Source: Comamonadaceae bacterium (GTDB lineage Bacteria; Pseudomonadota; Gammaproteobacteria; Burkholderiales; Burkholderiaceae_C). Taken from it: a stretch of 37,268 bases of DNA. The position numbers and the translations under genes were made by a program. The DNA lies in NCBI GenBank assembly GCA_947485165.1, contig CANKRG010000018.1, positions 1 to 37,268 on the forward strand, given 5' to 3'. Positions 4,623 through 27,232 of this stretch are shown in pieces (position 1 is the first letter of the stretch; each line of letters starts with the position of its first letter). The notes beneath the pieces were generated by a model that was not told the DNA's origin, did not search any database, and saw only the letters and a list, made by a program, of their open reading frames with translations.

Positions 4623-4694
4623 CCCTCAAAAATAAGGCTTAAATATGACTCTAGCCGGCGTATTTATTGCCTAAGTTGCTATCTTATTTGTGGC
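4623..4694 (-). repeat. Dispersed repeat R2, intergenic copy (recX/argC)
   Basis: Reverse complement: caaataagatagcaacttaggcaataaatacgccggctagagtcatatttaagccttatttttgagg; matches the R2 consensus. Confidence 0.8.
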
Positions 4695-4698
4695 AACA

Positions 4699-5631
4699 TC
4701 AAATCCCAAGCATCAACTTCAAATTCTGCACCGCCGCCCCGCTAGCGCCCTTGCCCAAATTGTCCAAACGCGCTACCAGCACAGCTTGGCGATACGTTTC
4801 ATTGCCAAACACCCGCAACTCCATCTTGTTGGTGTTGTTCAACGCCAACGCATCCAGCTTGGCCACATCCGCCGTCGGCACAACGGAAACCCATGAATCC
4901 GCCCCATTCGACGCTGCATAGTGCTTGGTCAAAGCCGCGTGCAAGTCTTCAACGGATGGCTTGCCAGGCAAACTGTCCAAATGCAAAGGCAGCTGCACCA
5001 ACATGCCCTGCGCAAAGTTACCAACGGACGGCACAAACAATGGACGGGTCGTCAAACCACCGTAGTGCATGATTTCGGCAATGTGCTTGTGCCCCAAACC
5101 CAGCGCGTAGAGCTCAAACGCCGGTGCTTCGCCCTGTTGGTAGGCTTCCATCATGCTGCGGCCACCACCGGAGTAGCCGCTGACGGCGGGAATGCTCAAA
5201 GCGTAGTCTTTAGGAAGCCATCCAGCCTCTACCAAAGGACGAATCAGCGCAATCGCGCCGGTGGCGTAGCAGCCAGGGTTGGCGACGCGGCGGGAGACGG
5301 CGACCAAGGCACTTTGGGCAGCGTTCAACTCAGGAAAGCCGTACACCCAGCCCGGTGAGACGCGGTGGGCGGTGGAAGAGTCGATGATTTTTGGTTGGTT
5401 GCCAGAAAAAGTGTCAATCATGGCGACAGATTCACGCGCTGCATCGTCGTGCAGACATAAAACAACCACATCGGCCTGCGCCATCAAATCACGCTTGGCG
5501 GCGGCATCTTTGCGCAGTTCAGGGGCGATGCTGAGCATCTGGATGGCTGGCATGGTCGCCAAGCGCTCGCGAATTTGCAGGCCAGTGGTGCCAGCTTCAC
5601 CATCGATGAATACTTTATAAATTTTTGTCAT
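4699..5631 (-). CDS. argC: N-acetyl-gamma-glutamyl-phosphate reductase
   Basis: 310-aa [22 protein letters not shown]...[22 protein letters not shown]...[22 protein letters not shown]. Confidence 0.95.
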
Positions 5632-5848
5632 ATCTATATTCTAAAAATGTATTAATAATTATTTGCCACGAAAGCGATTGCACAGAGGCAGCTACGCTTC
5701 GATTTTGGTTACTGTAAGGTAACTCGCATTTTTGTGCAATGCAGCATGTTACAGTCCGTCTTGAAAATTCCGTGCCAAGCGGGTAGCGATTATCGCTGTT
5801 CGTCGGGTGTAAACCGTCACATTGTTGTCCATTTTTTGAGAGAGCCTC

Positions 5849-7009
5849 ATGAAAATTCACGAGTACCAAGGCAAAGAGCTATTACGTCAATTCGGCATTC
5901 CAGTGCCACGCGGTATTCCCGCCTTCACAGTGCAAGAAGCGGTTGAAGCTGCGCAAAAATTGGGCGGCCCAGTGTGGGTGGTCAAAGCGCAAATTCACGC
6001 GGGTGGACGCGGCAAAGGCGGCGGCGTGAAGCTGGCGCGCTCGATTGAAGAGGTCAAAAAAATCTCCGGTGAAATTTTGGGCATGCAGTTGGTCACGCAC
6101 CAAACCGGCGCGATGGGTCAAAAAGTACGCCGTTTGTTCATCGAAGACGGCGCTGATATCAAGCATGAATATTATGTCTCTGCTGTGACAGACCGTGCTA
6201 CGCAACGCGTTGCGTTCATCGTCTCGTCTGAAGGCGGTATGGACATTGAGCATGTGGCTGAAGTGTCACCCGAAAAAATCATCACCGAAATCGTCGATCC
6301 AGCTTTGGGTTTGACCGACGCGCAAGCCAAGCATTTGTCTGACAGTATTGGCGTGCCAGCAGGTTCAACAGCGCAGTGCGTCGATGTGCTGCAAAAGCTT
6401 TACAAGTGCTACATGGAGACCGATGCGTCTTTGGTTGAAATCAACCCCTTGGTGCTCGAAGGCAATGGCGGCATCAAAGCTTTGGACGCTAAGTTCAACT
6501 TTGACGCCAATGCGTTGTACCGCCACCCAGAAATCGTCGCCCTGCGCGATTTGGACGAAGAAGACCCAGCCGAAGTCGAAGCCAGCAAGTTTGACTTGGC
6601 CTACATCAGCTTAGACGGCAACATTGGTTGCTTGGTCAACGGCGCAGGCTTGGCGATGGCGACGATGGACACCATCAAGCTGTATGGTGCCGAGCCCGCC
6701 AACTTCTTGGACGTGGGCGGCGGTGCCACCCCAGAGAAAGTCACTGAAGCTTTCAAAATCATGCTGAAAAACCCGAAAGTGAAGGCCATCATGGTCAATA
6801 TCTTCGGCGGCATCATGAAGTGCGACACCATTGCCACGGGCGTGATCACCGCTTGCCGCGCCACCAATTTGAGTGTGCCACTGGTGGTGCGCATGAAGGG
6901 TACGAACGAAGAGCTGGGTAAGAAGATGTTGGCCGAATCAGGTTTGCCAATCATCAGCGCGGATTCGATGGCGGAAGCTGCCGAAAAAGTCGTCGCGGCT
7001 TTGAAGTAA
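5849..7009 (+). CDS. sucC: Succinate-CoA ligase (ADP-forming) subunit beta
   Basis: 386-aa [30 protein letters not shown]...[14 protein letters not shown]...[16 protein letters not shown]. Confidence 0.98.
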
Positions 7010-7044
7010 ATAGAACACATAGCGCAGAACGAATAGGAACGAAT

Positions 7045-7938
7045 ATGTCAATCTACATCAATAAAAACACACGCGTTATTACCCAAGGTATCACAGGTAA
7101 AACAGGTCAATTTCATACAGAAAAATGCCAAGAATATGCCAACGGCAAAGAATGCTTTGTCGCAGGCGTGAATCCTAAGAAGGCTGGCGAATCCATTTTT
7201 AACATCCCAATCTACGCGACTGTTAAAGAAGCGGCTGGCGCAACGGGTGCAACCGTATCTGTGATTTACGTGCCACCAGCAGGCGCAGCCGCTGCCATTT
7301 GGGAAGCCGTTGAAGCGGACTTGGATTTGGCGATTTGTATCACCGAAGGCATCCCTGTTCGCGACATGTTGGAAATTCGCAACCGCATGCGCGCTAAAGA
7401 AGCCGCTGGCGGCAAAAAAACCTTGTTGCTCGGCCCCAATTGCCCGGGTTTGATCACGCCAGATGAGATCAAAATCGGCATCATGCCAGGCCATATTCAC
7501 CGCAAAGGTCGCATTGGCGTGGTCAGCCGCTCTGGCACCTTGACCTATGAAGCCGTGGCGCAGTTGACCGAAATCGGCCTAGGCCAATCCAGTGCGGTCG
7601 GCATTGGTGGCGACCCGATCAATGGCTTGAAGCACATCGACGTGATGAAGGCTTTCAATGATGATCCAGATACCGACGCTGTCATCATGATCGGTGAAAT
7701 TGGTGGCCCAGACGAAGCAGAAGCAGCGCGTTGGTGCAAAGACAACATGAAAAAGCCTATCGTCGGCTTCATCGCTGGTGTGACTGCGCCAGCAGGCAAG
7801 CGCATGGGGCATGCCGGCGCTTTGATTTCAGGCGGTGCGGATACGGCTGATGCAAAATTGGCTGTGATGGAAGAGTGTGGTTTTAAAATCACGCGCAACC
7901 CATCAGAAATGGCAAAGTTGCTCAAAGCTATGCTCTGA
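7045..7938 (+). CDS. sucD: Succinate-CoA ligase subunit alpha
   Basis: 297-aa [31 protein letters not shown]...[23 protein letters not shown]...[10 protein letters not shown]. Confidence 0.98.
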
Positions 7939-26088: not shown

Positions 26089-26178
26089 CACAAAACCAGA
26101 TAATATCCAAAATATTTTTATCGACTTATCAACAAAAAATGGTGCCCTGCAACAATTCTAGTAAAAAGTAATCGTCTC

Positions 26179-26220
26179 TTGCTATCAAACAAATAGCGCG
26201 CTTAACTTGTTGATTCATAA
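26179..26220 (+). repeat. Possible partial R2 copy downstream of hemE
   Basis: ttgctatcaaacaaatagcgcgcttaacttg; only the left arm resembles R2. Confidence 0.3.
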
Positions 26221-26311
26221 CGATTTAATTTATTGCTTGATTTGTGTGCAATTTGTCCAATGCCTTGATTTATGTGGGTTTTTGCGCATTACCCAAGACC
26301 TATCAACAAAG

Positions 26312-26320
26312 TTATCCACA
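26312..26320 (+). promoter_or_regulatory. DnaA-box-like 9-mer TTATCCACA
   Basis: Exact match to the TTATNCACA consensus; TTATCAACA (26126-26134) and CTATCAACA (26300-26308) lie nearby. Confidence 0.45.
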
Positions 26321-26440
26321 GAAAATGTAGGCAAGCGCCTACAGGTATACAAATCAAGCACTTAGCTGGTTTTTTCAAATACAGCTTGAAGAAAATGACA
26401 AAATTATGACGCCTGTATTGAATCACTTGAAAGCTAAAGC

Positions 26441-27232
26441 ATGAGCTGCAAAGCCCTGATCTTGGCCGCTGGCCGTGGCGAACGCATGCGCCCGCTGACT
26501 GACCACACCCCCAAACCCCTGCTGTCCGTACGCGGTCAACCGCTGATGCAGTGGGCCATGCAGGCTCTGGCGCAGGGCGGGTTTACCGAGCTCGTGGTCA
26601 ACACCGCTTGGCAGGGTGAGCAGGTATCCGACCATTTTAGTGCTCATTTTGGCATCAAGCCGTTGTATTTATTGCCTGAGCAGCTATTGAAAAGTGAGCA
26701 AAAAGTTGCAAATCCCATCATGGTCCATATCAGCTATTCGCACGAAGGCCGCGACTTTGGCGGCGCGCTGGAGACGGCGGGTGGCATCGTACGGGCCTTG
26801 CCGCTGTTGTGCAGTTCAGCGGCTGACGAGGTGTTTTGGGTGCTTGCAGGCGATGTGTTCGCGCCCGATTTTGTGTTTTCGCAAGATGCGGTAGACCGCT
26901 TCAAAGCCAGCGGCAAGTTGGCCCACATCTGGCTAGTGCCTAACCCAGAGCACAACACCAAAGGCGATTTTGGGCTGCAAGCGGATGGCAAGGTCGTTAA
27001 TGAGTCGTCTGAAACATACACCTTCAGCACCATCGCGTTGTACCGCAAGCCTTTGTTTTCATGGCCTTATTGCGATATTCCGGCAGGAAACCCAGAAGGC
27101 GTTAAAGCCGCGTTGGCTCCGTTACTCAGAAAAGCCATTGCTGCACAGCAGGTGAGCGGTGAGTTGTACACTGGCACTTGGACAGATGTGGGTACGCCGG
27201 AACGCTTGGCGCAAATCAACAACCAACAGTGA
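26441..27232 (+). CDS. MurU-like / MobA-like nucleotidyltransferase
   Basis: MSCKALILAAGRGERMRPLTDHTPKPLLSVRGQPLMQWAMQALAQGGF...GGALETAGGIVRALP...VLAGDVFAPDF. Confidence 0.9.
   Translation: MSCKALILAAGRGERMRPLTDHTPKPLLSVRGQPLMQWAMQALAQGGFTELVVNTAWQGEQVSDHFSAHFGIKPLYLLPEQLLKSEQKVANPIMVHISYSHEGRDFGGALETAGGIVRALPLLCSSAADEVFWVLAGDVFAPDFVFSQDAVDRFKASGKLAHIWLVPNPEHNTKGDFGLQADGKVVNESSETYTFSTIALYRKPLFSWPYCDIPAGNPEGVKAALAPLLRKAIAAQQVSGELYTGTWTDVGTPERLAQINNQQ
26632..26696 (-). repeat. Dispersed repeat R2, inverted in-frame copy in the nucleotidyltransferase gene
   Basis: Reverse complement: cttttcaatagctgctcaggcaataaatacaacggcttgatgccaaaatgagcactaaaatgg. Confidence 0.75.

Follow-up and report, generated by a model that had tools for sequence, protein, structure and literature searches.

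The uptake signal sequences (USS) of the Pasteurellaceae show no orientation bias, prefer non-coding DNA while also having coding copies, align with few gaps, carry A/T tracts and differ between clades as "dialects" (PMC1626085), and the gyrase motif of E. coli extends over 130 bp with a GC periodicity of 10.75 bp (PMC6379681). Repetitive extragenic palindromic (REP) sequences, which are known inside genes as well (PMC3733652), are defined by a GT(A/G)G head that leads into a GC-rich palindrome (PMC2817692), and the BREs of Bordetella and the Comamonadaceae are dispersed betaproteobacterial repeats of ~90 bp, some copies of which lie in coding sequences (PMC3110155). Here we compare with these systems a dispersed repeat, R2, found in a 37,268-nucleotide stretch (“the window”) of a Comamonadaceae bacterium (assembly GCA_947485165.1, contig CANKRG010000018.1, positions 1 to 37,268). 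R2 is probably a long, helically phased DNA motif that is recognised by a protein, formed in place and inherited vertically, and not a jumping element.

A first-pass annotation of the window had listed eight R2 copies and likened them to the Rickettsia palindromic elements, a class of protein-inserting repeats. The observation of the repeat was right, and is larger in extent than first noted: a profile built from the eight copies recovers 8 of 8 (nhmmer E 1.1e-13 to 1.6e-17), at coordinates that hold to within a few bases, and when the source genome (G000; 2.21 Mb in 108 contigs, an 86% complete assembly) was scanned with a profile, the repeat stood far above the reversed sequence used as a control. 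A possible partial copy at 26179 found no support (E 5.2 with the eight-copy profile). Genome-wide, the 14-base core AATACGCCGGCTAG has 284 matches at up to 2 mismatches, against 12 in the reversed control. The profile counts for G000 come from sampled stretches totalling 425.7 kb; with a refined profile and a cut-off of 15 bits, these hold 99 copies (0 when the sequence is reversed), and extrapolation from this sample puts the genome-wide number at about 500. Written out, the consensus reads TGCTATAAATTTAATAGC-Ann-TTAGGCAATAAATACGCCGGCTAGAGnCATATTT, with a degenerate core of ~50 bp that can be written TGCTAT-N6-ATAGC-N6-GGCAATAAATACGCCGGCTAGAGGC. The core strings and those of the dialects described below were unmatched in the full texts searched, save for one unrelated hit. 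Comparisons drew on 121 genomes in all, among them three siblings of the same genus (G001, G002 and G003) and a genome of the nearest sister genus on the tree (G023).

Five of the window copies had been placed within genes (those of an EamA/DMT transporter, a Glyoxalase_3 (VOC) protein, DsbD twice and an NTP_transferase), and these placements are right (Table 1), as are the frames: the VOC copy and both DsbD copies are read in one frame and the DMT copy in another, while the nucleotidyltransferase copy is antisense. (The frame of DsbD site 1 was taken separately from the gene calls because the crude caller missed the signal peptide.) Across the four genomes of the genus, 89 of 264 copies lie in genes, and the density per kb is 0.96 in convergent spacers, 0.76 in co-directional spacers, 0.32 in divergent spacers and 0.09 in genes; R2 is about tenfold depleted in genes, and its rarest spacer class is the divergent one. 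Of the 89 in-gene copies, 66 use two of the six frames. The repeat had also been described as free of stops in several frames, which does not apply to the consensus, where every one of the six frames has a stop; at least one frame is open over 56 bp in 235 of 260 individual copies (83% would be expected from the column composition), and it is substitutions that open the copies, as with TAG to CAG where the reading is AINxIAxQAINTPA. The two orientations, counted by pattern in the four genomes, number 202/232, 188/203, 414/411 and 147/149, with no clear strand bias; strong over-representation of this kind, free of orientation bias, is also a mark of DNA uptake sequences (DUS) and USS. Further, R2 shows no preferred orientation relative to transcription in co-directional spacers (45 same, 56 anti), and short gaps between copies are scarce (3.7% vs 9.5% expected). 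A scan for replichore bias with the strict pattern in one complete relative gave 1 match and was uninformative.

R2 is helically phased, its A/T tracts being spaced ~10.6 bp apart between about -23 and about +104 (~130 bp). Beyond the 59-bp profile, A/T content oscillates at 10-10.7 bp rightward to about +104 and more weakly leftward to about -23. The right-flank oscillation has a power of 0.058-0.063, above the 99% permutation value (0.048), in sequence that the model for finding copies does not cover. GC-rich relatives have the same right-side phasing. The information profile decays gradually into these phased tracts, with no sharp element boundary. RNAalifold, run on 58 aligned copies, gave no pair and no consensus structure, and the only palindrome in R2 is the short GCTAT...ATAGC at the left; a function as an RNA hairpin was rejected on this lack of consensus structure together with the lack of an orientation preference in co-directional spacers. 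The phasing, the absence of RNA structure and the absence of a transcription-orientation bias together point to a motif at the level of DNA, bent or wrapped, and the agent that recognises R2 and then bends or wraps it would most likely be a protein. Overlapping divergent R2 pairs that share the left palindrome occur once in each of three genomes (Table 1).

Whether copies were inserted or formed in place was judged by the net change in length at the R2 locus relative to motif-less orthologues, with random coding windows (gapless in 94%; different by at least 10 residues in 0.6%) as the background. Prolyl-tRNA synthetase (ProRS) offers the clearest case. In G003, a 43-bit R2 copy lies in a ProRS linker of family-constant length (net change 0 in 30/31); the site has no motif in G000, G001 or G002 and only the left half in G023. 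This copy is 0.46-0.50 identical to its own motif-less sibling orthologues, vs 0.30-0.34 for other R2 copies (rank 1 of 260), and such retention of the orthologues' letters is expected if the copy was formed by substitutions, not if it was pasted. ProRS is thus one clear formation in place at constant length, and the net change is likewise 0 at a second locus (7/8) and in a ThiF-like gene (one orthologue). The copies as a whole agree: shared non-consensus letters stand at the level of a degeneracy-preserving null in the four genomes (observed/null 3.18/3.16, 2.76/2.74, 2.85/2.91 and 2.07/2.18), giving no sign of copy ancestry and no subfamily structure, with the exception of one G003 pair with 15 shared letters. 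The top pairwise identities among copies do exceed the null, which we attribute to heterogeneity of copy strength, given that on average there is no excess of shared derived letters.

Once formed, copies persist. The siblings carry R2 at similar density, and G003, which is syntenic with G000 and ~81% identical to it in DNA, has R2 at orthologous positions in ~20 of 23 comparable sites, including five in the window (Table 1); at shared intergenic sites the core is 0.77 identical, vs 0.55 and 0.68 for the flanks. Presence/absence differences in spacers involve 80-160 bp, and no target-site duplications were seen at their junctions. R2 is absent from the recA-recX spacer in G000 and from the recX-argC spacer in G001, and present in the other two species in each case; with one of three species lacking R2 at each locus, deletion is the simpler reading, and parsimony favours deletion over insertion at these two polarisable loci, given a sister relation of G000 and G001 that is left open by the tree. 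Outside the genus there are diverged dialects with the same layout (e.g., GCTATTnATTTnATAGCTnCTnGCGCA...GGGCTAnAGGCCAATTT). Of the 73 genomes within the family, 34 are matched by a dialect model (E 0.01), as against 0 of the 48 that belong to the order's other families, and motif presence is clustered on the ProRS tree (5 changes, vs 9.1 when shuffled).

Table 1. R2 copies in the window, their host genes, and R2-related features elsewhere in the genus. Positions without a prefix are those of the window; bit scores are from nhmmer.
Feature	Position	Strand	Remarks
R2 core copy	4637..4695	-	Intergenic, convergent recX/argC spacer; 55.0 bits; also in G003; absent in G001 with ~82 bp
R2 core copy	12441..12499	+	Intergenic, between type IV pilin gene and RelB-type antitoxin gene (neighbours by Pfam); 41.9 bits
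R2 core copy	13128..13186	+	Intergenic, upstream of tRNA gene 13291-13364 (tRNA by Rfam); 30.9 bits
R2 core copy	15144..15202	+	In EamA/DMT transporter gene, same strand, phase 1; 42.8 bits; also in G003
R2 core copy	17593..17651	+	In Glyoxalase_3 (VOC) gene, same strand, phase 2; 41.6 bits; also in G003
R2 core copy (DsbD site 1)	22265..22323	+	Over signal-peptide part of DsbD gene; 46.8 bits; also in G003
R2 core copy (DsbD site 2)	24020..24078	+	Hydrophobic (transmembrane-like) segment of DsbD gene, phase 2; 31.5 bits
R2 core copy	26642..26700	-	Antisense in NTP_transferase gene; 36.6 bits; common to G001 and G003
Host gene, EamA/DMT transporter	14969..15973	+	PF00892, E 9e-27
Host gene, Glyoxalase_3 (VOC) protein	17411..18154	+	PF13468, E 2e-37
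Host gene, DsbD (holds two R2 copies)	22218..24470	+	PF11412, PF02683, PF13899
Host gene, nucleotidyltransferase (NTP_transferase)	26441..27232	+	PF00483, E 2e-19
Y1_Tnp (RAYT-type) gene	G000:C36:993-1700 (L112)		Single copy
Divergent overlapping R2 pairs	G003:C1 near 43816; G000:C1 near 51920; G002:C39 near 32743		Share left palindrome

The probable course of events, then, is that R2 copies arise in place by substitution, partly within genes and there mainly in two frames, and that copies once formed would be kept and passed on vertically while genera develop dialects of their own. Given a recognised motif, the function that we prefer, with somewhat less than even confidence, is that of a signal by which natural transformation takes up DNA or recognises it as self. 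R2 resembles the USS and DUS of the Pasteurellaceae and Neisseriaceae in its hundreds of copies, its lack of orientation bias and its leaning towards non-coding DNA despite many copies in coding sequence, as well as, at ProRS and some other loci, in formation in place (the gap test of PMC1626085), in A/T tracts spaced about a helical turn apart beside the core, and in clade dialects; by this analogy it appears to behave like an in-place motif of the uptake type, a likeness that we do not extend to membership. It differs in being sparser (~1 per 4.3 kb, vs ~1 per kb) and more degenerate. The fuller description, that R2 is a previously undescribed self-recognition DNA sign of the Comamonadaceae, with a core of ~50 bp, helical phasing across ~130 bp, hundreds of copies in each genome, genus dialects and formation in place within genes, probably read by a DNA-wrapping uptake machine or a chromosome-organising one, is possible rather than probable. 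If it is true, R2 is far longer than any known uptake sequence and an unusually long motif is entering the proteins of much of a bacterial family by a route other than transposition; the known in-place genome-wide signs of such density are short, and a phased sign of ~130 bp would stand apart from them. Its dialects would show how a DNA sign and its reader have co-evolved, and both the recognition of DNA by uptake or topology machines and the spread of a sign through coding sequence would become directly testable.

Several observations weigh against formation in place, against an uptake function, or against both. At about half of the in-gene loci open to testing there is a gain of 4-21 residues, as USS and DUS would not lead one to expect, and since random windows are nearly gapless, accretion by point mutation alone does not explain all sites; in the spacers, motif-less alleles lack 80-160 bp. 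The residual-ancestry result is that of one locus, ProRS, where protein selection after a paste could mimic part of it, and that copies show almost no indels is in part owing to a bias in profile hits. The gene calls behind the placement data are crude, a weakness of those data, and the incomplete, fragmented assembly of G000 is another limit. A core of ~50 bp with phasing over ~130 bp is a far cry from the 9-12-bp core of USS and DUS, and R2, again unlike them, is spaced no more evenly than random (pooled coefficient of variation (CV) 1.0, P 0.6); a single contig alone had given a CV of 0.82, and the pooled data did not show this evenness. ComEC is present, but since it is present in motif-less genera also, it is not diagnostic of uptake.

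Next in our order of choice after an uptake signal is a wrapping site, i.e., that R2 is bound or wrapped by DNA gyrase or a nucleoid protein and kept for chromosome topology. This reading overlaps with the preferred one, in that a protein would recognise and wrap the motif in either case, and we regard it as unlikely, though a serious contender. The A/T phasing of R2 (~10.6 bp across ~130 bp) is like the A/T-G/C periodicity near 10.75 bp that runs over the same length in the gyrase motif and strong gyrase sites of E. coli (PMC6379681), and the lack of strand bias and the preference for convergent and co-directional spacers would suit it. The gyrase motif is symmetrical about the cleavage site and highly degenerate, whereas the core of R2 is asymmetrical and specific, and R2 has dialects. 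R2 is also limited to a clade: gyrase is expected in all genomes, yet about half of the family genomes examined lack the motif.

The gains in length bring in a further reading, in which an R2 strand pairs with a site of partial similarity and replaces its sequence (ectopic conversion or illegitimate short-patch recombination), whether or not DNA is gained on balance. Across the other in-gene loci the net gains were +4, +10, +12 and +21 residues, and homology-guided replacement would account for the whole span of 0 to 21 residues as well as for placement where the native DNA already partly matched the motif. What speaks against it is that the copies share no derived letters and that ancestral letters are retained in the core of the ProRS copy beyond what other copies would show; we think short replacement distinctly unlikely as the origin of R2.

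The protein-inserting reading of the first-pass annotation, in which R2 spreads into genes and spacers like a Rickettsia palindromic element by means of an unknown enzyme, holds at most for some loci, where insertion-like change is possible, and as a general account it is improbable. Copies are indeed read in several frames within unrelated genes, as are the Rickettsia elements, and a few loci are 10-21 residues longer than their motif-less orthologues. At the VOC site the gain is +12 to +16 aa (the site is common to G001 and G003, and G002 has a copy offset by 12 nt in the same linker), and at the DMT site motif-bearing siblings are +14 to +21 aa longer than outgroups, the motif-less sibling G002 being longer still. 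The gains nevertheless run from 0 to 21 residues and do not match one constant element length; several sites, ProRS among them, formed with no insertion. DsbD site 1 aligns without net motif insertion across motif-bearing and motif-less relatives, site 2 shows a net 0 to +6 aa in most comparisons, and related DNA is present at both sites in many Comamonadaceae relatives. Nor does R2 have the consensus hairpin, the sharp boundary or the open consensus frames that such an element would call for, and its copies show no shared derivation and are mostly at orthologous sites in the siblings. Short in-frame bacterial repeats in general need both a gap test and a residual-ancestry test before they are labelled mobile elements. 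The G003 DsbD gene (G003:C14, L162/L163) lacks ~174 bp around the second motif site, relative to the window.

Equally hard to credit is a non-autonomous element of the REP/REPIN type, mobilised by the REP-associated tyrosine transposase (RAYT, Y1_Tnp) of the genome. R2 is REP-like in being short, abundant and mostly intergenic, with a copy number and in-gene copies that recall REPs (PMC3733652), and the sole Y1_Tnp gene of G000 has R2 close on both sides, 74 nt upstream and 18 nt downstream, with a similar arrangement in G001. These flanking copies are in direct, not inverted, orientation, and the gene has inverted repeats of its own (GGGTCAGATTCCAATTA...TAATTGGAATCTGACCC), which recur around it in most other genera examined. 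Relatives of Y1_Tnp are found in 93 of the 121 genomes, mostly one in each and many of these genomes without R2, and the gene looks like a vertically inherited transposase gene. The GT(A/G)G head and GC-rich palindrome of REPs are absent from the R2 consensus and information profile, and there is no GTAG-tagged hairpin, no consensus structure by RNAalifold and no subfamily structure. Mobilisation of R2 by the RAYT was dropped on three grounds: the direct flanking copies, the gene's own inverted repeats and the presence of the gene in motif-less genera.

A miniature inverted-repeat transposable element finds no match in R2, which has no terminal inverted repeats or sharp ends, decays gradually and shows no duplications at presence/absence junctions. 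BRE shares with R2 its length class, its dispersal in Betaproteobacteria and some copies in coding sequences; in Bordetella, BREs have a mean GC content of 69%, frequently lie in tandem and reach no more than 29 per genome (PMC3110155), whereas R2 is AT-rich, dispersed and present in hundreds of copies, and BRE was set aside as the identity of R2 on GC content, the two being told apart by description.

A second dispersed repeat in the window, GC-rich and 45 nt long (CCCCCACGCTTGCCACTTCGTGT), lies at 1084-1128 and 21000-21044, the two copies being 96% identical and both in predicted coding regions; with as many as 3 mismatches allowed, the count is 14 in G000, 9 and 6 in two of the siblings, 2 in a different genus and 0 in the reversed control. 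R2-like copies of 31-54 bits are found on three contigs classed as viral (L300, L301 and L302). In the window, the RelB-type antitoxin gene (12569-12844) lies directly 3' of an R2 copy and of the type IV pilin gene.

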